37,152 nt of DNA from a virus: the IMG/VR virus record IMGVR_UViG_3300050821_007105, positions 1-37,152 of that record, one strand, 5' to 3'. The notes beneath the pieces are model-generated. The model searched no databases. It saw only the letters and a program-made list of their open reading frames with translations, and had not been told where the DNA came from. Made by a program: the position numbers and the translations under genes. Of the stretch, positions 10,653-27,939 are shown in pieces. Position 1 is the first letter of the stretch, and each line of letters starts with the position of its first letter.

Positions 10653-12092
10653 TCACTCTCCAGCCCATCCACCTATTTTTTTCTGTATAGAAATCTCTTT
10701 TGAGCCTCCACCATCTCTAAAGTCGCTTGGCAACCCGTCGTAGTATTGATCCAACTGTTCCCACGGGTCATTGGTCCGCTGGGCGAACTTGGCAAAGCTA
10801 GCAGAACCGAGAGCGAACGCACCGGCCACGGCATCGGCCCGGTCCGGAGATTTGAGGCCGCGAGCTTTCATATCTTCCTTGGGTTCAAGCTGGGCGCGGC
10901 CTTTCCGGTCATAAATGATCTTCCGGGTGGTGAGTTGAGAGATCAATGTCGGATCATTGATCAGGACGATCTCACCTTTCTCGATCATCCGGGCGAGTTT
11001 ACCCCAGATCTCGGCGCCCCGGTTGTAGTAAACGTCGTGCCGGGAAGCTTTCCCGCCGAAATCGAAGCGGTTAATGTTCCAGCCAGCATCTGCTAGCATG
11101 TCACACATAGGGGTGCCCATGCCTCCGGCATCCCCCCAGATCTGGGCGGCACGCAAATGATGCTTACGGAATTCGATGATAAAACGACCCACGGAGGAAA
11201 CCGTATCTCTTTCCCTCCAAGCGATGAGTTCCAAGAGTTTGTTGCCGGAACGTATCGCAAGAACGTTTTCGTCTCCTCCGGCAGCAAAGTCACAAAAAGC
11301 AGAATAGTCATGGCGGCTGATCAGCGCACCGGGCGGGCTGGACATCAGGTTCATCAAGGCTTCGAAATTAACAGCCATCGGAGTGTTCTCATCCTCGGCC
11401 ATGAACTCGCCAAAAATGGTCGAGCGGACGAAAGGCGCGTTCTCGCCGTAGGTATCGATGACATCCCGGATCCGTTCCTTGGAAATATGCGGACAATCCT
11501 GCAAGCCAACCTGTTCTGTTAAAATGAACTGTTCCCGATGCGTGGTGAAAGCGTCATAAAACCGGCCCGTTTTCAGGCCGGGGGAACTGATGAACAGCTC
11601 GACGTTAAACGAACAGCGGTCGAACGCCTGAAAGATCTCGTTCTCGACCGATTTGGCTTCATCGATGATGATCAAAAGCGGCGAATGCAACGCTTTATGG
11701 TGACCTTCCGCCCGGGAACTCTCATCGGTGGTGAACGAAAGGAAAAACCCGTTGTCATGGGTCTTGATCGTCCGGCCCAAGAACTCCCAAGCCGGGAACC
11801 TGCTAGCGTGCTTTTTCAGAGCGGGCATAATTTGAAAGTCTATTTGCTTCGCATCCGCCGACGTGAGGACAACCCTGCCTCTGGGGAAACGGTTGAGCCA
11901 GCGCAGGATCGCGACTCCGACCACCCGCTCCGATTTCCCAGCCCCGTTAGGCGCCGAGACAGCAACTTTCACCCGGTCAAGCTGGGAACACTTATCTATG
12001 ACGGCCAAGACCTTGTGCTGCCAAGGGTACAACGGCGTTTCCAAGCCGATCTCGGCAAAGGCCAGCACGTCATCGAGCACCTTTCTGGCCAT
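10653..12092 (-). CDS. terL: terminase large subunit
   Basis: 479 residues, normal for TerL. The ATPase half shows a Walker A-like SAPNGAGKS at 46-54 and a Walker B LLIIIDEAKS at 139-148. The RNase H-like nuclease half has D268 in CDFAAGG, D321 in IWGDAGGMG, and D417/D420 in SPDRADAVAGA. It docks on the portal, drives DNA into the prohead and cuts the concatemer. The initiating ATG lies one base after the stop of the upstream gene. GCTAGC occurs several times in the gene, including at 10797 where it is read as Ala-Ser. Confidence 0.92.
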   Translation of the reverse strand: MARKVLDDVLAFAEIGLETPLYPWQHKVLAVIDKCSQLDRVKVAVSAPNGAGKSERVVGVAILRWLNRFPRGRVVLTSADAKQIDFQIMPALKKHASRFPAWEFLGRTIKTHDNGFFLSFTTDESSRAEGHHKALHSPLLIIIDEAKSVENEIFQAFDRCSFNVELFISSPGLKTGRFYDAFTTHREQFILTEQVGLQDCPHISKERIRDVIDTYGENAPFVRSTIFGEFMAEDENTPMAVNFEALMNLMSSPPGALISRHDYSAFCDFAAGGDENVLAIRSGNKLLELIAWRERDTVSSVGRFIIEFRKHHLRAAQIWGDAGGMGTPMCDMLADAGWNINRFDFGGKASRHDVYYNRGAEIWGKLARMIEKGEIVLINDPTLISQLTTRKIIYDRKGRAQLEPKEDMKARGLKSPDRADAVAGAFALGSASFAKFAQRTNDPWEQLDQYYDGLPSDFRDGGGSKEISIQKKIGGWAGE

Positions 12093-13050: not shown

Positions 13051-13644
13051 TCACTTCCCCTTCTTGGCACGCTTCCTGCTAGCGCTGCTAGCGCTTTTGC
13101 TAGGTTTGCTAGCAGTTTGGCTAACTGGCTTAGCTGTTGACTTGTCATCGTCGCCGTTGACGCTAGCAGTTGACTTGTCATCGGTGTTAGGTTTCGGGTC
13201 CGCTTCCCTGCTAGCACTAAATTCCTTGCTAGCGTCCCGCTTGCTAGCGACGAGCTTCTCGACTTCGGCTTCCACGGTGCTAGCACGCGCTTGAAGCTCT
13301 CTGGCAGCCTCTGCGGTGATCACAAGGGTGTTGTTGGTTGTGCTGCTAGCGCTCAGGTTAAGTTGCACCTCAGGCTTGCTTAACTGTGTTGCGTATTGAC
13401 GTTCTAGCATCCACGCAGCTCCTTGCCAGCCAACGGCGCCGTTCCAGATTTTTCTTCGGAAAGGCTTTTCGAACTCTAAACGCTTTTGGAGGATTTGTTG
13501 CCAACGTTCAGTCTGCTTAATTCTAGCTAGCGTGCGCTCTGAAATTCCTGCTAAATACGCTGCTTGACTCTCAGTAAAAGCGAGAAAAAGCGCTTCAGCA
13601 AGTGCTGTCAAGACTTTATCGCTTAGTTGCAAAGGCTTAGGCAT
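13051..13644 (-). CDS. terS: terminase small subunit-like DNA-binding protein
   Basis: 197 residues. A helix-turn-helix is visible at about 25-45 (ESQAAYLAGISERTLARIK), followed by a helical part with IWNGAVGWQGAAWMLERQYAT at 66-86; the W-GAAW-LER motif is typical of phage small terminase subunits. After about residue 110 the chain is a low-complexity A/S/K/D tail. It would recognise the packaging site and load TerL. The tail is encoded by DNA holding eight GCTAGC palindromes, so its odd composition may be a by-product of a DNA site array (inference). First gene of the late minus operon. Confidence 0.7.
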   Translation of the reverse strand: MPKPLQLSDKVLTALAEALFLAFTESQAAYLAGISERTLARIKQTERWQQILQKRLEFEKPFRRKIWNGAVGWQGAAWMLERQYATQLSKPEVQLNLSASSTTNNTLVITAEAARELQARASTVEAEVEKLVASKRDASKEFSASREADPKPNTDDKSTASVNGDDDKSTAKPVSQTASKPSKSASSASRKRAKKGK

Positions 13645-13661
13645 AAGGCACTTACGCTAGC
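13078..13661. repeat. dense GCTAGC palindrome cluster
   Basis: Eleven GCTAGC copies start at 13078, 13087, 13108, 13162, 13210, 13228, 13243, 13279, 13345, 13526 and 13656. Eight lie within 207 bases. Elsewhere in the window the motif averages about one per 400 bases. The cluster covers the 3' two thirds and leader of the terminase small subunit gene, a place where many phages keep their pac site. It is a candidate packaging, segregation or replication site. Confidence 0.8.
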
Positions 13662-14148
13662 GTGCTAAAAAAGATTAAAGAATCTTGAAAAAGTACTTTA
13701 CGTTTATCAAGTTTCGCCGATTATCATAGGTAGTTGGTTGTTAGTAAATGAGGCCAACGAAGCGAGCGGTGAATTCCAATTGCAGCCAGTAAGCGCCCCC
13801 CACGCTGAAAGCGAAATAAAGCTCTTTGGACATCTTAAATACGGTATGCGCGTCTTGCCAGCCCTTGCTGCTGCTTACTCCTTCGCAAGAGGATCTAAGT
13901 GAAACAACCGCGAATTGAAAGAAAAACTTCGTTGAGCCTGAAGGCTCTTCAGTTCTGTGATCCGAGTGATCACCGTGACCATTATCCAAATCGGTCCGGA
14001 GACTGGAGACATCAGCAGTAAACAAGACAGTGGAAAAAGACTCTTACTGATTTTGCGCTCATCGAGGCATCAAAACAAACTGCCTCTGTGAGCGCTGTTA
14101 TCAGCAAGGTGCTGATAGGGAAAAGTGATTAAACAGAAAGAAAACAAT
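13662..14148. other. divergent intergenic region
   Basis: About 490 bases separate the minus-strand late operon from the plus-strand early operon, so promoters for both should lie here. The first 80 bases are AT-rich, with a small hairpin AAGATT-AAAG-AATCTT and stretches such as TTATCATAGG, but I find no convincing -35/-10 pair. A 94-codon minus frame (13741-14025) and a 40-codon plus frame (GTG at 13899) are present but unsupported. The right end holds the hairpins and leader listed next. Confidence 0.5.
14055..14131 (+). promoter_or_regulatory. two hairpins plus AAGTGATTA leader ahead of AAA+ gene
   Basis: Hairpin 1: GCGCTCA (14055-14061) and GAGGCA pair with TGCCTC and TGAGCGC (14089-14095), 13 base pairs with a 2x2 internal loop. 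Hairpin 2: TATCAGCA-AGG-TGCTGATA (14099-14117). The leader motif AAGTGATTA follows (GTGATTA at 14125-14131), then AACAGAAAG, then the ATG at 14149. Confidence 0.65.
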
Positions 14149-15444
14149 ATGTTGGAAGTGATTGAATTTGAAGGTGCGCAATATTCGCGCTGGGCGCTGG
14201 AACAAACTGAAGTCGACAAGCTTCGCAAGATGGTCCGCTTCTTCAAGGTGCAGCGTGGATCGCTCATCTCTGGCCTGACGATTGCCGGAATGAAACGAGC
14301 CGAATGCGTCGACTGGCTTTTAAAGGTCGAGTCTGACGATGAAGTCAACGTTGGCCGTGAAACTCACGTTGAATCCGAGAACGGCAACGATCTAGTGGAA
14401 GCGCCAAAAGCAGACGCTCAAGTGAGCGCTCCTGAGGCTCCAATTGCGCCTAAGGTTGAGGCAACCATGAATCGAGCCGAGAACCTGCTCAAAGCGCTGG
14501 CTGAAGCGCTGGCTGGCCAATTGGAGGCTGGCAAGATCGATCAGGAACAAGTTGCCGGATGGGTTGCGGCTGAAGTCGCTTCCCAAGTTGCCGAGACTGA
14601 GAATCGGCTGGCTGAACTGATCAAGAGTCAAGCTCGTCACGTCATTCTCGAAAAGATCGAGACTGGAGAGAAAGTCGACCTTGGTCTGCAACATCACCGC
14701 TTCGAGGCTCTTTTGCTTCGTTGCCGGATAGCTCTTGCTGCTGCTAGCAAGGGTAAGTATGTCAATATCTGGTTGGTTGGTCCCGCTGGCAGCGGCAAAA
14801 CGACAGCAGCAGAAAACGTTGCCAAGGCGATTGAAGCGGAGCTTGGCGAACCGTTCCAGTTCCAGTTCAACGGTGCGCTGGATAGCGAGCATAAACTGCT
14901 CGGATTCGTCGACGCTAACGGCAACATCGTTAGTCGACCGTTTCGCGAAGTCTGGGAAAACGGTGGGCTGTACTTGTTCGATGAAGTGGATGCCTCGATG
15001 CCCGGAGCTTGCTTGGCCTTGAATGCGGCTCTTGCTAACGGGTATTGCGATTTCCCGAATGGGAAAGTCTATCGACATCCGAAAACGGTTGTCATTGCTA
15101 GCGGCAACGTCTGGAACGGTGCAACGGAAGATTACGTTGGCCGATTCAAGCCAGACGCGGCTTTCAGTGATCGCTTCATGAAGTTCCGATGGGACTATGA
15201 CGAGAAGCTCGAGCGGGCGATTGCCCAGAACGATGTCTGGGTTGATTACGTGATCAAGGTCCGGAAAGCGATCAAAACAGAGGGCATCAAGCAGCACGTG
15301 GTTAGCCCAAGGGCATCCATGTTTGGCGCCTTGATGCTGGCTGGCGGTGTTCCTTGGCCTGAAGTCGTCGACGATTGCGTGCGCAAGGGATTGCCCGATG
15401 CAACGTGGGCGTTGATAACGGCCAAGGTTGATTCGATGAACTAG
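14149..15444 (+). CDS. CobS/MoxR-type AAA+ ATPase
   Basis: 431 residues from the ATG at 14149; a GTG at 14125 in the same frame belongs to the leader motif and is rejected. An N-terminal SAP/HeH-like helical part (about 20-62) and a long helical linker precede the AAA+ module: Walker A GPAGSGKT (211-218), Walker B LYLFDEVDA (274-282), sensor-1 IASGN (316-320) and arginine finger FSDRF (340-344). CobS and MoxR proteins remodel partner proteins, usually through a von Willebrand A-like partner; the next gene is a candidate partner. It heads the early plus-strand operon. The actual target is unknown. Confidence 0.8.
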   Translation: MLEVIEFEGAQYSRWALEQTEVDKLRKMVRFFKVQRGSLISGLTIAGMKRAECVDWLLKVESDDEVNVGRETHVESENGNDLVEAPKADAQVSAPEAPIAPKVEATMNRAENLLKALAEALAGQLEAGKIDQEQVAGWVAAEVASQVAETENRLAELIKSQARHVILEKIETGEKVDLGLQHHRFEALLLRCRIALAAASKGKYVNIWLVGPAGSGKTTAAENVAKAIEAELGEPFQFQFNGALDSEHKLLGFVDANGNIVSRPFREVWENGGLYLFDEVDASMPGACLALNAALANGYCDFPNGKVYRHPKTVVIASGNVWNGATEDYVGRFKPDAAFSDRFMKFRWDYDEKLERAIAQNDVWVDYVIKVRKAIKTEGIKQHVVSPRASMFGALMLAGGVPWPEVVDDCVRKGLPDATWALITAKVDSMN

Positions 15445-15459
15445 GTTCGCGGCTGTCTG

Positions 15460-15529
15460 GAGTCTGAAGGTTCAAATCCTCAGACTCTAGCAAGCTGCTA
15501 GCACGGTGCTAGAAAGCAGGAAGTGATTA
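15460..15529 (+). promoter_or_regulatory. intercistronic hairpins plus leader motif
   Basis: Hairpin GAGTCTGA (15460-15467) / TCAGACTC (15480-15487) encloses GGTTCAAATCC, which matches the tRNA T-loop consensus, although no tRNA can be folded. It is followed by a GCTAGC-containing palindromic stretch (CTAGCA-AGC-TGCTAG) and then AAGTGATTA (GTGATTA 15523-15529), six bases before the next ATG. Confidence 0.65.
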
Positions 15530-15535
15530 AATTAT

Positions 15536-16426
15536 ATGAAACGAAGAAGAAGCTCTTTTAAAGGTCAACCCAAGTATCCTGTTAATGAGCAGGTTAGGGA
15601 CACAACCCATGAGACAAGATTGGCCTCAGGCGGATGTTACCAGTCTTTCGGTTCCCCTGAGGATTTCGCCGCTATGTGCGAAAAGGTTGGCGTCCATTTT
15701 GAAGGCTCTGGCTGGCGTAGTCGCGAAAGTTCAACCCAAGCGCTGCGATTGCTTCGCCAAGGCGACAGCAAGCGCGTGGAAGCTGCGGAGGCGATCTGCG
15801 ACAAGTTCCAGAACGATATCGACCTTGGCCAATCTTGGCCGCAATGGGAACTCGATGTCTGCGGTGCTTACCCTTGCGTGCCCAATTACTTGGCTGGCGT
15901 ACCTGAAACCATGTACCGCAAACAAGTCGTTCAATCGGACAGGGCACCGATCACGATTTGGGTCTGTGTGACATCAAGCGGAGGATGCGAGGCTGAAGCG
16001 CTGGAAAAGCGGGGCATCGCGATTCAAGCGCTGGCCATGGCGCTATCGGTGACAAGGCAGGTTCAAATCAGAATCTTCTCAGGATTGGATGGCGGAAGAG
16101 GCGATCATATCATGAGCGTCGACTTACCTACTCCTGCGGTCTTAAGTCAGGCAGCGTTTATGCTGGCCAGCCAATCGTTTAGCCGTGGGTTGACTTACGA
16201 ATTCCTCGAGAAAGCGACAGGAGCGGGAGGAGGCTGGCCAAGGAGCGTAGGTCACGGGAGCTATGAACAGCGGACAGCAGACTGGAAAAAGCTACTCCCG
16301 ATAGCGGACGTGGATCTAGTTTTCCCTCACGTCTTCTTCATGGATCCGGATTACACCGATCCAATCAAATACTGCAAGACGATATTCGACAAGGTGACCA
16401 GTGGAGAATTGGCACCAATCGAGTAA
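15536..16426 (+). CDS. unknown partner of the AAA+ ATPase (VWA-like candidate)
   Basis: 296 residues, basic N terminus (MKRRRSSFKGQPKYP), then a central alpha/beta region. At 137-150 a hydrophobic strand ends in VTSSGG (APITIWVCVTSSGG), placed like the metal-binding DxSxS loop of von Willebrand A domains but with T replacing the aspartate. A second strand, RQVQIRIFSGLDGG, follows about 25 residues later. It resembles uncharacterised phage proteins (DUF7192-like) encoded beside CobS-type ATPases, which by analogy with CobST or MoxR-VWA pairs would form a remodelling complex. The fold assignment is inferred. ATG is six bases after the leader motif. Confidence 0.6.
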   Translation: MKRRRSSFKGQPKYPVNEQVRDTTHETRLASGGCYQSFGSPEDFAAMCEKVGVHFEGSGWRSRESSTQALRLLRQGDSKRVEAAEAICDKFQNDIDLGQSWPQWELDVCGAYPCVPNYLAGVPETMYRKQVVQSDRAPITIWVCVTSSGGCEAEALEKRGIAIQALAMALSVTRQVQIRIFSGLDGGRGDHIMSVDLPTPAVLSQAAFMLASQSFSRGLTYEFLEKATGAGGGWPRSVGHGSYEQRTADWKKLLPIADVDLVFPHVFFMDPDYTDPIKYCKTIFDKVTSGELAPIE

Positions 16427-16439
16427 GCGAGCGGACATC

Positions 16440-16532
16440 GAGCCTCAGGGGAACGAATCCCCTGCGGCTCCAGTCTGCTAGCATCAAGCTAGGCAGAATC
16501 AAAACAGAAAGTGATTAGCAAGAAAGTGATTA
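16440..16532 (+). promoter_or_regulatory. two hairpins plus duplicated leader motif
   Basis: Hairpin GAGCC-tc-AGGGG (16440-16451) pairs with CCCCT-gc-GGCTC (16459-16470) around the loop AACGAAT. Second hairpin TCTGCTAGC (16474-16482) pairs with GCTAGGCAGA (16488-16497) with one bulge and contains GCTAGC. Two AAAGTGATTAG copies follow (GTGATTA at 16511 and 16526), the second five bases before the ATG. Confidence 0.65.
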
Positions 16533-16537
16533 GCAAT

Positions 16538-16771
16538 ATGACAACCAAGACCACACAAAAGGCGCTCGGTTATGCCCTGAGCATCCGGCAAAAGGCCAAT
16601 GAACTGGAGACTCTGATTCTCAAGCTGGAGGCTGGCGTTGCCAGTGCAGAGACTGCCTTCGATATCTGGGACCAAGTTTTCGACTTGGCTAATGAGGCCG
16701 CGGCCAAGACAGACAGACTTCGCTCGCTGTCTGCCAGTGAATCACTGGACATCCAAAGCATCACCGAATGA
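16538..16771 (+). CDS. small helical hypothetical protein
   Basis: 77 residues from the ATG at 16538 (MTTKTTQKALGYALSIRQK). A GTG nine codons upstream lies in the leader motif and is not used as start here. The product is almost wholly helical with heptad-like leucines (NELETLILKLEAGVASAETAF ... DRLRSLSASESLD), suggesting an oligomeric helical bundle. It ends in an ATGA overlap with the next gene. No family recognised. Confidence 0.6.
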   Translation: MTTKTTQKALGYALSIRQKANELETLILKLEAGVASAETAFDIWDQVFDLANEAAAKTDRLRSLSASESLDIQSITE

Positions 16772-16941
16772 CAACCAACGAAATCAAGGCAGCAAGGGAA
16801 CTCTGGAAAGCGCGTGGAGTCCGTCTGACCATGCGCAATGGTATCCAGCATTTGAGCCTGATCAAGACTCTGGAAGCTCAGGCAGCTTACCGGAACTGGA
16901 TCAGCAAAACGACAAGCCGAGTCTGGAAGAAGATAAGCTAA
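16768..16941 (+). CDS. 57-residue basic hypothetical protein
   Basis: Opens with ATGA overlapping the stop of the previous gene and closes 29 bases before the next start. The product, beginning MTTNEIKAARELWKARGVRL, is helical and basic, and the tail WISKTTSRVWKKIS is amphipathic. Its N terminus shares MTT- with its upstream neighbour but no wider similarity. The coupling supports translation. It could be a small nucleic-acid or membrane-binding protein; function unknown. Confidence 0.55.
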   Translation: MTTNEIKAARELWKARGVRLTMRNGIQHLSLIKTLEAQAAYRNWISKTTSRVWKKIS

Positions 16942-16950
16942 CCAAAACCA

Positions 16951-16967
16951 AAACAGAAAGTGATTAG
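16951..16967 (+). promoter_or_regulatory. AAACAGAAAGTGATTAG leader
   Basis: Clean copy of the leader motif without a hairpin in front, ending three bases before the ATG at 16971. GTGATT could pair (one G-U) with GAUCAC just upstream of CCUCC in the 16S rRNA tail. Confidence 0.6.
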
Positions 16968-16970
16968 ATA

Positions 16971-17294
16971 ATGGAAAAGATACCCGGCGGGCAAGAGCCT
17001 ACCCAAAGCGAAGTCGACGCCGTTTTGGCGTCAATTAAAATCACCAAAAGAAGCCAAAGCAAGTTCACTGGCGAGACTGAAAAGGCGGTCAATAACCTTC
17101 CGGCTCGGACCACGTGGTTCGATGACAAGGAATTGCGGATGATGTTGGCAGCGTTCCGGAACAGTCAGGGATTCGCGGCCAATGCGATCATCAAAGCGCT
17201 GATCAAGGAATTCGATGAAGCGCTGGACGCCCGGATCAAACACAAGCTCGGACTGGCTGAAGCTCCGGAGACAGAAAGGGATCCAGTCGAATGA
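16971..17294 (+). CDS. hypothetical protein, possible DNA-binding
   Basis: 107 residues. After a flexible start, residues 20-40 are basic (KITKRSQSKFTGETEKAV) and residues 48-90 form two or three helices (FDDKELRMMLAAFRNSQGF, AANAIIKALIKEFDEAL). The strand-helix-helix order is loosely like a ribbon-helix-helix fold, but the match is weak. The leader motif ends three bases before the start. It ends in an ATGA overlap with the next gene. Confidence 0.6.
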   Translation: MEKIPGGQEPTQSEVDAVLASIKITKRSQSKFTGETEKAVNNLPARTTWFDDKELRMMLAAFRNSQGFAANAIIKALIKEFDEALDARIKHKLGLAEAPETERDPVE

Positions 17295-17431
17295 AAGCAA
17301 AAGCAATCGCGCTCGCAGTGCTAGTGTTCGCCGCTTGGCATCATCACGAATGGCTGAAGACGGCGACAGACGATCAGATCCGGAGCGAGCAGGAATCCAT
17401 GGTCTTGGATCGGGAGGATGACGCGCCATGA
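17291..17431 (+). CDS. 46-residue membrane-anchored peptide
   Basis: ATGA overlaps at both ends couple it to its neighbours. The product has a signal-anchor-like N terminus (MKAKAIALAVLVFAAWHHHE) followed by an acidic tail (SEQESMVLDREDDAP). Probably an inner-membrane micro-protein with a short exposed tail. Function unknown. Confidence 0.55.
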   Translation: MKAKAIALAVLVFAAWHHHEWLKTATDDQIRSEQESMVLDREDDAP

Positions 17432-17619
17432 AGAGCTACGATCATTTTATTACCTACCATGATCCGTATGCCGCTTGGCTTGGCCAATGCGAATGCCGTC
17501 ATTGCAAACCGGCGCCGGTCTATCCGGAAACGGATGACGCGCTGGAACGCGATGACGCGCTGGAGTGGGGAGGCGTGAGTCCGATAGATCCGGACGAGCT
17601 TGAATCAGAAAGGCGGTGA
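17428..17619 (+). CDS. small acidic protein with CxCxxC
   Basis: 63 residues. MKSYDHFITYHDPYAAWLG is followed by QCECRHCKP, a CxCxxC cluster that could bind zinc, and a strongly acidic C terminus (ETDDALERDDALEWGG, containing the duplicated unit DDALE). The acidic, compact form is often seen in phage inhibitors of host proteins, but nothing here proves that. Start overlaps the preceding stop as ATGA. Confidence 0.55.
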   Translation: MKSYDHFITYHDPYAAWLGQCECRHCKPAPVYPETDDALERDDALEWGGVSPIDPDELESERR

Positions 17620-17629
17620 GTTTCGCAGT

Positions 17630-17693
17630 CTGCCAGTGCGTGCTAGCACTGGCAGGAAGCGCAATTAAGCGCAACCAAAACAGAAAGTGATTA
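17630..17693 (+). promoter_or_regulatory. perfect hairpin with GCTAGC plus leader motif
   Basis: CTGCCAGTGC (17630-17639) and GCACTGGCAG (17646-17655) form a perfect 10-base-pair stem with a six-base loop; GCTAGC spans loop and stem. AACCAAAACAGAAAGTGATTAG follows and GTGATTA (17687-17693) ends five bases before the GTG start at 17699. No T-tract, so this is not a standard terminator. Confidence 0.7.
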
Positions 17694-17698
17694 GCAAA

Positions 17699-18253
17699 GT
17701 GAAATTAAACCGATTAGAAAAGTCCGTTCTCCTGATTGTCGCGGCCTTGGCCTTGGCAACTGGCATTGCCAGCGCTGACCTTGGCGATACCGTCGCCTCC
17801 AGTGAGGCCAAGTACGGGAAACCCACCAGAGTGGATCTTCCCTGCCTCAACTACATCCACAACGGATGGTGGATCCGCCAGACTTTCAACGCCAACGAGA
17901 TTTGCGTGATGGCTGAGTTTGTCAGGCTGGACGGCAAACAGGTGACCGACACTCAGGCGCACAACATGGATAGCCACAACCTTCCAGCCTACACGCTGAA
18001 CACAACCAGTAATGGATGGGTAACGACCAAATGGGATAACACCGGGACATTCAACAATGTTCAGAGCCATCTCTGGTCGACCAGTCAGGAGTGGTGGCAG
18101 GTGCTAGCGGGACAATTCCGCTACGGCAACGACACTAAATGGTTCTTCAGCCGTACCTACATTACCCCTGCTGGCCAAGCTATCGTCAATCACGAAAACG
18201 CCAAAGGTAACCAGAGTACCGAAACGGTTTCGAGTCCTGATACCAATATCTAG
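17699..18253 (+). CDS. secreted early protein with Sec signal peptide
   Basis: 184 residues from GTG at 17699 (MKLNRLEKSVLLIVAALALA); the earlier in-frame GTG at 17687 is part of the leader motif. Residues 1-24 are a textbook signal peptide with likely cleavage after ASA. The mature part has many aromatic and polar residues (HNGWWIRQTF, SHLWSTSQEWWQVLAGQF, DTKWFFSRTY) and two cysteines, suggesting a small beta-rich periplasmic protein. An exported protein in an early operon could act on superinfection or the cell envelope (inference). No family recognised. Confidence 0.65.
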   Translation: MKLNRLEKSVLLIVAALALATGIASADLGDTVASSEAKYGKPTRVDLPCLNYIHNGWWIRQTFNANEICVMAEFVRLDGKQVTDTQAHNMDSHNLPAYTLNTTSNGWVTTKWDNTGTFNNVQSHLWSTSQEWWQVLAGQFRYGNDTKWFFSRTYITPAGQAIVNHENAKGNQSTETVSSPDTNI

Positions 18254-18262
18254 TTCGACTAT

Positions 18263-18338
18263 CCGCCTCTGCTGCTAGCAGGGGCGGGAAGAGGAATTAG
18301 AAACCTCAATCAAAACCAAAACAGACGGAAAGTGATTA
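18263..18338 (+). promoter_or_regulatory. hairpin with GCTAGC plus leader motif
   Basis: CCGCCTCTGC (18263-18272) pairs with GCAGGGGCGG (18278-18287), ten pairs with one G-T wobble and a TGCTA loop; GCTAGC again spans loop and stem. Further on, AAAACAGACGGAAAGTGATTAG contains GTGATTA at 18332-18338, three bases before the ATG at 18342. Confidence 0.65.
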
Positions 18339-18341
18339 GTT

Positions 18342-18545
18342 ATGTGTGAAAACGAAGCAAGAGAATCAAGGAAGGCTTTTAGAGCCAAGCAGTACACGCT
18401 CGGCGCCTTCAATAACGACGAGCTGCGAGCACTGATCTACGGACTGCGGGCCACGGCCAAAGGGAAAGGGCACGCGCTCCATGACGAGCTAGCAGAGGAA
18501 CTGGAGATCCGCGGCCATGAGGAAGGATGGGGATTCAAGAAATGA
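18342..18545 (+). CDS. small hypothetical protein
   Basis: 67 residues. Two predicted helices carry most of it: NDELRALIYGLRATAKGKG and HALHDELAEELEIRGHEEG. Such short helical charged proteins are common in phage early operons and have no assigned role. It is preceded by the leader motif and ends in an ATGA overlap with the next gene. Confidence 0.6.
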   Translation: MCENEARESRKAFRAKQYTLGAFNNDELRALIYGLRATAKGKGHALHDELAEELEIRGHEEGWGFKK

Positions 18546-19105
18546 ACGAGGAAGTGAACATCAAACAATGGATCGAGCAGTACGTCGACGCGCTCAAGAC
18601 GCTAGCATCGTTCCATAACGAAAGGCGCGAAAAAGAACACCAGATGACCGCTCCGGTGATGCTCCATGAGTTCGTCCTCAAGTACGGAAAGGTTTACAAA
18701 GGCCAGCCGCTGCCCAACAAATATCGCCTCAGGCGGATCAAGGAATGTTTCAGGAACGCCAAGCTGCTAACAGAACGGAGTAAGGTGCTGACCTACTGCG
18801 AGGGCTTTGTCGCAAGCGCTGATCTTCCCCTGATCATCCATCACGCTTGGGCGGTCAACCAGAAGGGCGAGGTGATCGATCCAACCTTGCGCGGATTCCA
18901 TGACCTGAACGTCAGCGGAGGCGAGCGCGGCCATTACATGGGCGTGCTGTTTCCCAACTGGTTCGTCAAGCGTTACTGGGCTGGCTCGATGCTGGATTCT
19001 GATTTCGGAATCAGACGAACCGTGATCGAGATCTACGAATCGATAGCAGCAGATGGTCTGATGGATTGCACTCAGGAAGAAATCGAAAAACTGGAGGCTT
19101 GCTAG
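18542..19105 (+). CDS. hypothetical protein with Cys-His-Asp pattern
   Basis: 187 residues from the ATG at 18542 that overlaps the previous stop; an ATG five codons earlier is in frame but less likely. The second half shows C86 in TYCEGF, H101 in IHHAWAV and D113 in VIDPT, followed by YMGVLFP. This C...HAW...DPT order recurs in uncharacterised phage proteins and matches the Cys-His-Asp layout of papain/NlpC or transglutaminase-like folds. Catalysis is not proven. The stop codon TAG lies inside a GCTAGC palindrome directly before the next ATG. Confidence 0.6.
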   Translation: MNEEVNIKQWIEQYVDALKTLASFHNERREKEHQMTAPVMLHEFVLKYGKVYKGQPLPNKYRLRRIKECFRNAKLLTERSKVLTYCEGFVASADLPLIIHHAWAVNQKGEVIDPTLRGFHDLNVSGGERGHYMGVLFPNWFVKRYWAGSMLDSDFGIRRTVIEIYESIAADGLMDCTQEEIEKLEAC

Positions 19106-19106
19106 C

Positions 19107-19235
19107 ATGAGTGGAACGACAAGGCTGGCAACCAGAATAGAAAAGCGGCGGGACAGCTCGGACCTGATCCATCGACTACCAAAACAGAAACGCGGTCCGA
19201 ATTTTATCAAACCAAGAAAGAAAAGGAAAAAGTGA
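19107..19235 (+). CDS. 42-residue very basic peptide
   Basis: ATG starts one base after the previous stop, and the end overlaps the next GTG start (GTGA). The product, beginning MSGTTRLATRIEKRRDSSDL and ending KPRKKRKK, is highly lysine/arginine-rich and probably binds nucleic acid or acidic proteins. Its place in an unbroken chain of coupled genes supports it. Confidence 0.5.
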   Translation: MSGTTRLATRIEKRRDSSDLIHRLPKQKRGPNFIKPRKKRKK

Positions 19236-19876
19236 AAAGCGAAACGAACGAAACAAAAATGTTGGACGGTGTTCTCATCGATCCGTGGAGGCAGGAAATC
19301 AGCCGGATCCAGATCAGCTCGGATTCGGATATCTGGCGCAAGGTATTGCGCTGCGACTGCTACGATTGCATGGCAATCAGCACCTCGGACGGAATCAGCA
19401 TGGATCTCTGGTTCGATGATGAAGGCCGGATGATCGAACCGCCTAGCCCGCGGTTCCGGTTGCGCCGGGGCGATTCGGTCGGCGGCGGCGAGATCGACAT
19501 CTGTGGGTACGGACTGCTCCTGAGTTCAAACAACCGGGGCGAAACAATCGGTCTGCAAACCAACCCGCTCAATCTGGGGCGCTGGATCGCGCTAGCAGGG
19601 CTGGCGTTTGAAGTGCCGCAAGGCAATCCGCGGTTCAAGGGATACGACACCGAATTCCTCGAGCAGAAAATGCGGCTTCTCGAGAACGAGCTGCCCGGCA
19701 AAATCAAGATCCTTTCCGAAGGCGTGGAAGGAATCAAGCTGGTGCAAGTTGCGGAGGGATCAATCCATATCAAGGGCGATATCGGCCCGAACCTGAGCGA
19801 GATGCTCGACCAGATCGTGGACCACTTCATGAAGCACATCGGAGAGGAAGACGAGCAGGAGGGCGAACAGAAATGA
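19232..19876 (+). CDS. DUF3846-like hypothetical protein
   Basis: 214 residues with a GTG start overlapping the previous stop; an ATG at 19259 would give a version nine residues shorter. The N-terminal half (LIDPWRQEISRIQIS, then RCDCYDCMAIS, DLWFDDEGRMIEPPSPRF, then GGGEIDICGYGLLLS) follows the order of DUF3846-like phage proteins: a DP-x-I opening, a central cysteine strand and a D-EG turn. The C-terminal 60 residues are a separate alpha/beta part. These proteins are common in phages and of unknown function. Confidence 0.55.
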   Translation: MKSETNETKMLDGVLIDPWRQEISRIQISSDSDIWRKVLRCDCYDCMAISTSDGISMDLWFDDEGRMIEPPSPRFRLRRGDSVGGGEIDICGYGLLLSSNNRGETIGLQTNPLNLGRWIALAGLAFEVPQGNPRFKGYDTEFLEQKMRLLENELPGKIKILSEGVEGIKLVQVAEGSIHIKGDIGPNLSEMLDQIVDHFMKHIGEEDEQEGEQK

Positions 19877-20025
19877 AAACTCTCCTGATCGTGCTAGCAG
19901 GGATTCTGGGCGCAGCGCTCGGCCTTTGGGTGATGTACGGCCTTTGCTGCGTCATCTGGGAAATCGTCAAGATCGATACCGAATCGGTCAAAGCGGGTCA
20001 CGCTCACTACCGGAGGGATTCATGA
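19873..20025 (+). CDS. 50-residue membrane protein
   Basis: Coupled at both ends by ATGA overlaps. The N terminus is a long transmembrane helix (MKTLLIVLAGILGAALGLWV then MYGLCCVIWEIV) and the C terminus is short and polar (DTESVKAGHAHYRRDS). GCTAGC encodes part of the helix (Leu-Ala). Small early membrane proteins of this type can be toxic or exclusion factors, but nothing specific is seen. Confidence 0.55.
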   Translation: MKTLLIVLAGILGAALGLWVMYGLCCVIWEIVKIDTESVKAGHAHYRRDS

Positions 20026-20516
20026 ACAACGGAGAACCGCCAGCGACGAACGACGTACAGGCTGGCGTCGATTCTGAGGGGTTTCCGAGTGTCACGGGTG
20101 CGGAAACGCCTTCCGATGCGCCAGAATCGATCCTAGAGCGTTCTGGCGATGTGGTCAAACGAACATATAAACCGGGCGACAACCTGCCAAAGCATCCGCG
20201 TGGCAGACCGAGCCGATACCAGAAGAAAGCCGAGAAAAAGGACAAGGCCCGGAATCCCGATCCAGTCAAAAGCTGGGGCGGGAAACGGAAAGGCGCCGGG
20301 CGTCCGCGGAAACGCGGGCCTCGGGCCAAGAAACAGACCATGGTCCGGATGGACTGGGAGCTAGCAGCAAAGCTGGAGAGTTTGCCCAAGGGCGAAAGAA
20401 GCGAATACCTTCGCCAAGCAGTCGAGCTGATGGTCGATATCCAGTCGCCGGAAAAATTTCTTGCCTCTGGGAGAAAGAAGCGGGAAGCTGAAGACGCTTC
20501 AAGCACAAGTCTGTAA
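20022..20516 (+). CDS. AT-hook and ribbon-helix-helix-like DNA-binding protein
   Basis: 164 residues from the ATG at 20022, which overlaps the previous stop and has CGGAGGG five bases ahead; a longer frame from 19926 reads through the preceding gene and is rejected. Residues 59-64 (PRGRPS) and 88-99 (KRKGAGRPRKRG) are AT-hook-like. Residues 104-140 (KKQTMVRMDWELAAKLESLP, then KGERSEYLRQAVELMVDI) fit a strand-helix-helix fold of the CopG/Arc type. The protein is probably a regulator or a DNA-organising protein and is the last gene before the terminator. Confidence 0.7.
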   Translation: MNNGEPPATNDVQAGVDSEGFPSVTGAETPSDAPESILERSGDVVKRTYKPGDNLPKHPRGRPSRYQKKAEKKDKARNPDPVKSWGGKRKGAGRPRKRGPRAKKQTMVRMDWELAAKLESLPKGERSEYLRQAVELMVDIQSPEKFLASGRKKREAEDASSTSL

Positions 20517-26311: not shown

Positions 26312-26654
26312 TGGAACCTCCTCGATACCGTGGGCAGTAACGGAACCTTTGTGCTGTGTTTTTCCGAATGTGATCCGCTCGCGTTTCGGGCGATAGATGA
26401 GCAGGATTGACGCAGTGAGGGTGTCCGCACTCATGATGGATCTCTTTCCCCTTCATCACTGGACCGACAAACAGACCGTAGGAAACCAGATGGCTCCTAC
26501 GTGCTCTGTCCGCTCCAAACCATCCATAGCCATCTTTGTCGATGCACCCCGTCCAGAGCCAGCACCCATTCCGGTGCAGCTCGACGAAGTTCATGAAGCG
26601 GACAACCATGTCGGTCGGATGAAGGCTCTTCCCTCGTCTTCTTACTTGGTCCAT
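26304..26654 (-). CDS. HNH endonuclease
   Basis: 116 residues. The core is GKEIHHECGHPHCVNPAHLS (69-88), with H73/H74, N83 and H86 in the H-N-H positions and cysteines that may hold a structural zinc; an N-terminal GCWLWTG-DKDGYGWF part is typical of phage HNH_3-type proteins. It lies exactly between the annealase and exonuclease genes, overlapping both by a few bases, so it looks like a mobile gene that has settled without breaking the operon. It is not closely similar to the HNH protein at 10191-10640 outside the core. Confidence 0.8.
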   Translation of the reverse strand: MDQVRRRGKSLHPTDMVVRFMNFVELHRNGCWLWTGCIDKDGYGWFGADRARRSHLVSYGLFVGPVMKGKEIHHECGHPHCVNPAHLSPETRADHIRKNTAQRFRYCPRYRGGSIG

Positions 26655-27685
26655 CAGGTTGTCGCTCCAGTTGCCGCCGCTGCTTCCGCCGCTTCCTCGG
26701 CCTCCGCTTTAGCCTTGGCTTCCTTCATTTCGGTGATTCGCTTGGCTTGGGTCATCACCACGTTCCAGTTCTTGATCAGCGTCTTGATTTTCGCCTCAGG
26801 CAGAGATTCAAGTTTGTGCTCCACACCTCTGGGAAAGAGCCGCAAACCATTGACGATCTCGATCAGTAACTCTTCCGAAATATCGGACTTTTCAGACATC
26901 CTTTTCAGGTGTTCCAGATCGGTTTCGGTTGACGAATCGACCGGATTTTCTGGTTTGGTTGATTCGACCTTTTCCAATGGAATTTCCTTGGCCGGGATAT
27001 CGGACGGCGCCGAGATGATCGGATGCTGGTGGGCTTTCGGATCCTCCGGATCCGGCTCGAATGGAACCGTCTCGGTCTTGGGCACTTCACGGTAGCCGCG
27101 CCCGGTAGCGATTGAAGGCGCGTCGGTGACCACCTTGACCTCAGGAACCTCGTCGACCAGTTCCTCGGTCAGGTACATGCCTTGCAGCACGTCCGAGAAC
27201 TCCCGGCGGTAACAGAAGCCGAGCGCACGCCAGTACAACATGCTGTCGGGATAATTGCTCCAGCCGGATCCTTGCTTGCCGGGATAAAGCCCGGCTTGCT
27301 TGGCTTCCTTGATGGTGAAACTCCAAGTGGCTGGCTTGCGATCCTTGCGCTGAACCGTGACGCTGCATTTCCGGGCCTCGCTGTCGCCAGTGTATTCGTG
27401 CGATTTATCGACCAGAAGGCCGGACCGCTCGACCAGCGCCGATGCTAGCGCACCGTTGATGCTGGTCTTGTTGTTGATCACGCTGATGTTCTCGAGCGCT
27501 TCAAACATATCCAGCCCAAGGCGTCTACCCTTGAGGATGATCAGGTTGATCTGGGTCGGGTTGCCGAGCTTGGTAATCCCGGCGTCCATGATCTGTTTGG
27601 AGATCCGTGTTAGCTGGTCCCACTGGGTGTAGACCAGTTCGCCTTTGTCTGAGATGGGAATTATCTGTGTGTCTTGGTTGGTCAT
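26654..27685 (-). CDS. RecT-like single-strand annealing protein
   Basis: 343 residues. The N-terminal 180 residues fit the RecT family: LGLDMFEALENISVINNKTS (56-75), a middle beta part, and GWSNYPDSMLYWRALGFCYR (141-160) followed by LQGMYLTEEL, the W--YP--ML--RA-------D---G-Y---E motif. The C-terminal half is acidic and proline-rich, then helical and alanine-rich, probably for partner binding. With the adjacent nuclease it forms a Red-like exonuclease/annealase pair. The ATG overlaps the preceding stop (ATGA). Confidence 0.75.
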   Translation of the reverse strand: MTNQDTQIIPISDKGELVYTQWDQLTRISKQIMDAGITKLGNPTQINLIILKGRRLGLDMFEALENISVINNKTSINGALASALVERSGLLVDKSHEYTGDSEARKCSVTVQRKDRKPATWSFTIKEAKQAGLYPGKQGSGWSNYPDSMLYWRALGFCYRREFSDVLQGMYLTEELVDEVPEVKVVTDAPSIATGRGYREVPKTETVPFEPDPEDPKAHQHPIISAPSDIPAKEIPLEKVESTKPENPVDSSTETDLEHLKRMSEKSDISEELLIEIVNGLRLFPRGVEHKLESLPEAKIKTLIKNWNVVMTQAKRITEMKEAKAKAEAEEAAEAAAATGATT

Positions 27686-27873
27686 TTAGTCTTTCTGCTA
27701 GTCTCGAATTGAAACGGTGTGGTTATCTTGTCGTTGTGCTCGTAATGCTCTATTAGCAATGTTGCGCACATCCTGAAGTACGCCGACATACTCTCGAATT
27801 GATAGTGTTCGGCGGCTTTCCTGAACGGCTCTTTCTGCTGTTCAGGTATCCAAACGTTAGTTAATGATGGCAT
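27682..27873 (-). CDS. ribbon-helix-helix-like small protein
   Basis: 63 residues from the ATG at 27873 (MPSLTNVWIPEQQKEPFRKA); an in-frame ATG 27 bases upstream lacks support. A short strand (TNVWIPEQ), a helix (EPFRKAAEHYQ) and a second helix (SMSAYFRMCATLLIEHYEH) match the general plan of CopG-like DNA-binding proteins. As first gene of the minus-strand replication/recombination block it may be its regulator (inference). Confidence 0.55.
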   Translation of the reverse strand: MPSLTNVWIPEQQKEPFRKAAEHYQFESMSAYFRMCATLLIEHYEHNDKITTPFQFETSRKTK

Positions 27874-27939
27874 TACCCCACTTTGTACCACAGGGAGCAA
27901 CGTGGACGCAAGGGGAGTCTTGAAAAATCAGGAAATTTT

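Follow-up and report, generated by a model that had tools for sequence, protein, structure and literature searches.

The GCTAGC cluster in terS

We investigated the hexamer GCTAGC (hereafter the word) in a 37,152-base soil phage genome, an IMG/VR virus record (G000; this whole stretch of DNA is called the window), where 11 copies form a cluster in and beside terS, the gene for the terminase small subunit (Table 1). The copies begin at positions 13078, 13087, 13108, 13162, 13210, 13228, 13243, 13279, 13345, 13526, and 13656, and our recount agrees with the first-pass annotation on their number and on the crowding of eight of them into 207 bases (13078-13284). That annotation had placed the cluster inside and ahead of terS; ten copies do lie inside the gene, only one lies upstream. 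terS opens a leftward late block and has one copy next to its start codon; from this layout control of late expression, loading of a protein, and packaging would suit the position of the cluster equally well.

Table 1. Features discussed in the text, with coordinates in the window
Feature	Coordinates	Strand	Remarks
TerL (terminase large subunit)	10653..12092	-	tblastn to annotated phage terminases; query for relatives
terS (terminase small subunit)	13051..13644	-	phrog_4102, E 8e-6; low-complexity 3' end holds most of the cluster
GCTAGC cluster	13078..13661		11 copies; densest stretch of the genome-wide word
Single GCTAGC copy	13656..13661		12 bases ahead of the terS start codon; kept in G003
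Early-type operon	14125..20516	+	several intergenic gaps with one GCTAGC copy each
DUF3846-like protein	19232..19876	+	neighbour of the RHH gene; PF12957 weak, E 0.0025
Ribbon-helix-helix (RHH) protein, candidate word reader	19926..20516	+	N-terminal basic GRPRK region; RHH_3 (PF12651)
RHH core KKQTMVRMDWELAAKLESLPKGERSEYLRQAVELM	20328..20429	+	predicted strand varies between relatives along with the word
RecT-like annealing protein	26654..27685	-	phrog_561, E 2e-20

When 95 copies, the number in the window, were placed at random (5,000 simulations), 11 copies per 600 bases occurred in 0.06% of the simulations, and eight per 210 bases in none. terS holds 10 copies against a mean of 0.7 and a maximum of 4 in 300 synonymous-codon shuffles, and GCT-AGC encodes all nine Ala-Ser dipeptides of TerS but 35 of the 94 found in other genes (the chance of 9/9 at the other genes' rate is 1.4e-4). 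Both results support the earlier suggestion that the tail of TerS is shaped by the DNA word. In the structural model of the protein, helix-turn-helix (HTH)-like helices at 9-43 and a long helix at 111-143 precede this tail, which is of low confidence from about 146.

Relatives were sought with TerL, which returned four (92, 83, 80, and 67%), the nearest named terminases being those of Akkermansia phages (32-36%, tblastn), and with the major head protein, which returned 59 loci, none of them on a bacterial genome contig. Several relatives are contig fragments, and gene calls were based on open reading frames. A single metagenome is the source of G001, G003, and G004.

Of the 11 sites that the window and G003 each have in the terS region, ten line up between the two phages, and each phage has one of its own. 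G002, whose word is GTTAAC, has five GTTAAC in terS and the gap upstream of it against about one expected (P ~0.003); nowhere else in that genome is GTTAAC denser, although a genome-wide scan was not significant (P = 0.2). G001 has no GCTAGC in terS despite carrying the word elsewhere. The terS cluster is therefore recurrent among relatives, yet not required, and the second cluster, built from another word, supports the earlier view that cluster and dispersed copies belong together.

The word across the genome and its relatives

The window contains 95 copies of GCTAGC (2,557 per Mb), against 7.0 under a first-order expectation and about 11 from base composition. Within coding sequence we observed 83 copies, against 11.1 +/- 2.9 when synonymous codons were shuffled between genes in a way that preserved proteins and codon usage, so that, as in the highly iterated palindromes (HIPs) of cyanobacteria, the word is over-represented beyond what amino-acid sequence and codon usage account for. 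Of the coding copies, 44 are translated as Ala-Ser and 39 as x-Leu-Ala; the remaining frame holds a stop. Of the 73 CTA codons, 39 fall inside a copy. An artefact of translation or protein sequence, in which a low-complexity Ala/Ser tail and codon preference generate the word, can draw on the composition of the TerS tail and on its mostly Ala-Ser copies; it is already refuted for practical purposes, because the shuffles yield 11 rather than 83 copies overall and 0.7 rather than 10 in terS, and because near-identical proteins of relatives lack the word.

The flanks of the word are also biased: after symmetrization, T before and A after are favoured and G before is nearly excluded, giving TGCTAGCA as the preferred extended form. 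Aligned sites remain intact between the window and G003 at 44 of 57 positions (77%), against a mean of 45% for common hexamers (binomial P ~1e-6). These results show that the enrichment is kept by selection on DNA. Conversion of near misses into GCTAGC, whether by directed mutation or otherwise, was rejected as unlikely because the single-mismatch neighbours of the word show no depletion (261 observed against 170 expected). Cooperative phased spacing was likewise rejected, the multiples of three among the distances being explained by the codon frame.

Each of four intergenic copies in the early-type operon (15497, 16477, 17642, and 18274) lies within an inverted repeat that precedes a gene start and has a recurrent AGGAAAGTGATTA-like element nearby; two of these hairpins (17642 and 18274) beat 200 of 200 shuffles in folding, those at 15497 and 16477 do not. 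A second dispersed palindrome, CCTNAGG (mostly CCTSAGG, with G/C flanks), occurs independently of GCTAGC, with 24 copies in the window, 20 in G003, 13 in G001, 38 in G023, 13 in G024, and 8 or fewer in other relatives.

GCTAGC is also enriched in G003 (85 copies in 35 kb), G001 (17 in 21 kb), G022 (32 in 30 kb), and the short contigs L176, L179, and L223. CAGCTG is enriched in G022 as well (32 against 8.4). G002 has only 11 GCTAGC and instead 52 GTTAAC (7.3 expected), with the same T/A preference in the flanks (TGTTAACA: 10 against 0.4). Neither word is enriched in G004 or in eight further word-free relatives (G023-G029 and G035). G004 is structurally close to the window: its capsid (head) protein is 96% identical, and two right-end genes, at 83-84%, equal the closeness of G003's. 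In six conserved genes (76% nucleotide identity), however, G004 keeps none of 16 GCTAGC copies of the window, eight of which stand at unchanged amino acids. A search for an alternative word in G004 gave nothing above the family background (TGGCCA, z 5.8). Since G002 uses GTTAAC, and G004, for all its likeness in the capsid, uses neither word, the word follows a switchable reader and not the needs of the proteins. Outside this set, none of 17 records checked (the 16 GCTAGC-cluster matches listed and L020) is enriched genome-wide like the window.

Candidate readers of the word

The first-pass annotation proposed the cluster as the packaging start. Several phages are known to have their pac site within terS, and one could suppose that the word is the binding site of TerS, with the cluster as pac and the dispersed copies as secondary packaging or scanning sites. 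The location in or beside terS does agree with this in the window, in G003, and weakly in G002 (P ~0.003, for its other word), and the modelled N-terminus of TerS has an HTH-like fold; G001 terS has no copy. The idea that the word itself is a TerS or packaging signal is weakened further by the distribution of TerS, which is found in every family member holding the region, with or without the word, and whose similarity does not track it: the TerS of word-free G004 (45% identity) is closer to that of the window than is the TerS of word-bearing G001 (38%). A pac site, moreover, needs no ~84 copies elsewhere, whereas the word is genome-wide, and neither the dispersed copies nor their loss with TerS retained would be explained. 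We regard TerS as an improbable reader. The annotation had also likened the cluster to a ParB loading site; no ParB-family protein or parS was among the family matches seen, which covered part of the genes.

We compared the distribution of 46 window genes among the relatives. The protein at 19926-20516, earlier named an AT-hook protein, is better described as RHH: its isolated core scores above the RHH_3 cut-off of 21.6 bits both in the window (21.7) and in G003 (23.2), while the whole protein scores 17.1, below it. The conserved start of the gene is probably the ATG at 20022. All five genomes G000-G004 carry the gene, and the eight other word-free relatives lack it (Fisher P = 0.007, a value that ignores the phylogeny of the five mutually related carriers). 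Its predicted base-reading strand is MVRMD or MVRLD in the GCTAGC phages, NFMID in G002, where the word is GTTAAC, and MVLLN in G004. Searches of the PDB by sequence and by fold gave no RHH relative of the protein, and no named phage carrying the RHH core was found.

The neighbouring DUF3846-like gene matches the word exactly, being carried by G000-G003 and by none of the word-free relatives; in IMG/VR, the same three phages alone were among the further matches listed. Among the records compared, recT is found in G000, G003, G002, and G022 and is missing from every word-free relative; the contig of G001 does not include the recT region. Because the DUF3846-like gene and recT are confined to word-bearing phages, the word follows the early module. 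Within that module the RHH protein is the only word-tracking gene product with a predicted sequence-specific DNA-binding domain, so that to take it as the reader is the simplest inference, short of proof, and it seems a better candidate than TerS. A small second RHH-like protein, recognized by eye, is encoded at 27682-27900 (minus strand) upstream of recT; G003 has a homologue in the same place and L230 a weak one. As a reader it was rejected, being absent from word-bearing G022, whose recT-adjacent gene differs.

The distribution of recT would also fit a word used by the RecT/exonuclease module, perhaps as a recombination hotspot or an end-processing signal. RecT-family annealing proteins are not known to act sequence-specifically, and such a role would leave the terS cluster without a reason; we consider it highly improbable.

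The most serious competitor, though still an unlikely one, is a word imposed by the host: a host genome in which a methyltransferase-linked or other host process has enriched GCTAGC, and to which the phage adapted, the terS cluster marking no more than a permissive disordered tail. The density of the word is at the upper end of the range, 500-2500 per Mb, reported for comparable cyanobacterial palindromes (PMC4390886), and HIP1 and its like resemble it further in being palindromic and in being replaced by another palindrome in close relatives; in exceptional strains these palindromes switch together with methyltransferases (PMC4390886). HIPs, however, are chromosomal and methyltransferase-linked, whereas the word is in a phage, and a scan, limited to motifs, gave no sign of a cognate methyltransferase in plausible genes of G000-G003. 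In favour of a host-made word we also count that no such motif was seen in the phage's own genes and that the second word CCTNAGG is common to G000, G003, G001, G023, and G024. Against it stand the association of the word with the early module and G004, which comes from the same metagenome as G001 and G003 and is structurally close to the window, yet lacks the word. Nor could any host genome be tied to the phage; two genome scans gave no provirus. By eye, a frame of the distant member L020 (4662-5648; TerL 56%) resembles a DNA-cytosine methyltransferase.

Dispersed sites, known systems, and meaning

The explanation we prefer, tentatively, is that the GCTAGC copies are dispersed sites of the phage RHH protein and that terS is a dense loading or control region. 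We infer its mechanism as follows. The copies, preferably as TGCTAGCA, would be bound by a sequence-specific dimeric protein of the phage's own early module, most likely the RHH protein and perhaps its DUF3846-like neighbour as well. Dimers would sit on the phage DNA at average intervals of about 400 bases, and the resulting nucleoprotein complex would organize or silence that DNA. At the dense terS patch the complex may nucleate, and there it may restrain late transcription or mark the DNA for packaging.

Several observations weigh against this explanation. The RHH assignment is close to threshold, and the AlphaFold model of the monomer, whose confidence is modest, places two helices correctly but lacks a strand and has no fold match in the PDB. 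Only five related genomes carry the RHH gene; one of them, G004, has it without a clear word, and in word-bearing G022 the RHH region falls outside the contig. recT tracks the word almost as well, and the association may thus be with the early module rather than with the RHH protein. We found no clear helical phasing or preferred spacing of neighbouring sites, and G001 indicates that the dispersed word needs no terS cluster.

Among known systems, the stoperators of cluster A mycobacteriophages, read by L5-type repressors, are likewise many short sites for one phage protein across a genome, in promoter and intergenic regions. They are asymmetric and oriented with transcription, whereas GCTAGC is an exact palindrome without orientation, its 95 six-base copies are mostly intragenic, and the candidate reader is an RHH protein. 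MatP, an RHH-domain protein, reads palindromic sites (matS) dispersed over a large DNA domain. The window resembles this system in combining a predicted RHH protein with dispersed palindromes; matS sites, however, are longer, small in number, and limited to the Ter region, and no MatP homology was found. The SPBRE of phage SPbeta, bound by MrpR, is also a repeated phage-genome element read by a phage protein, but it is a 15-bp motif in the promoter regions of about 10 genes (PMC10516654), while the word has about 10 times as many sites, mostly intragenic.

A bolder version of the RHH explanation, which we put forward as speculation and think rather unlikely in its entirety, is that the RHH and DUF3846-like module has rewritten codons genome-wide, planting about 100 palindromic address words, and that the word would have switched from GCTAGC to GTTAAC together with the protein's base-reading strand. 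The terS array would then couple a whole-genome coat to late expression or packaging, marking phage DNA as self.

Known dispersed phage operators consist of tens of longer sites, mostly between genes. If the RHH explanation is true, a word present at 2.6 copies per kb in coding sequence, and switched between close relatives along with the predicted contact strand of its candidate reader, would be a natural experiment on the evolution of binding-site sets, and a phage-encoded nucleoid protein would become directly testable. If the word is instead imposed by the host, GCTAGC would be a signature in the sequence by which these uncultured phages could be matched to their hosts.
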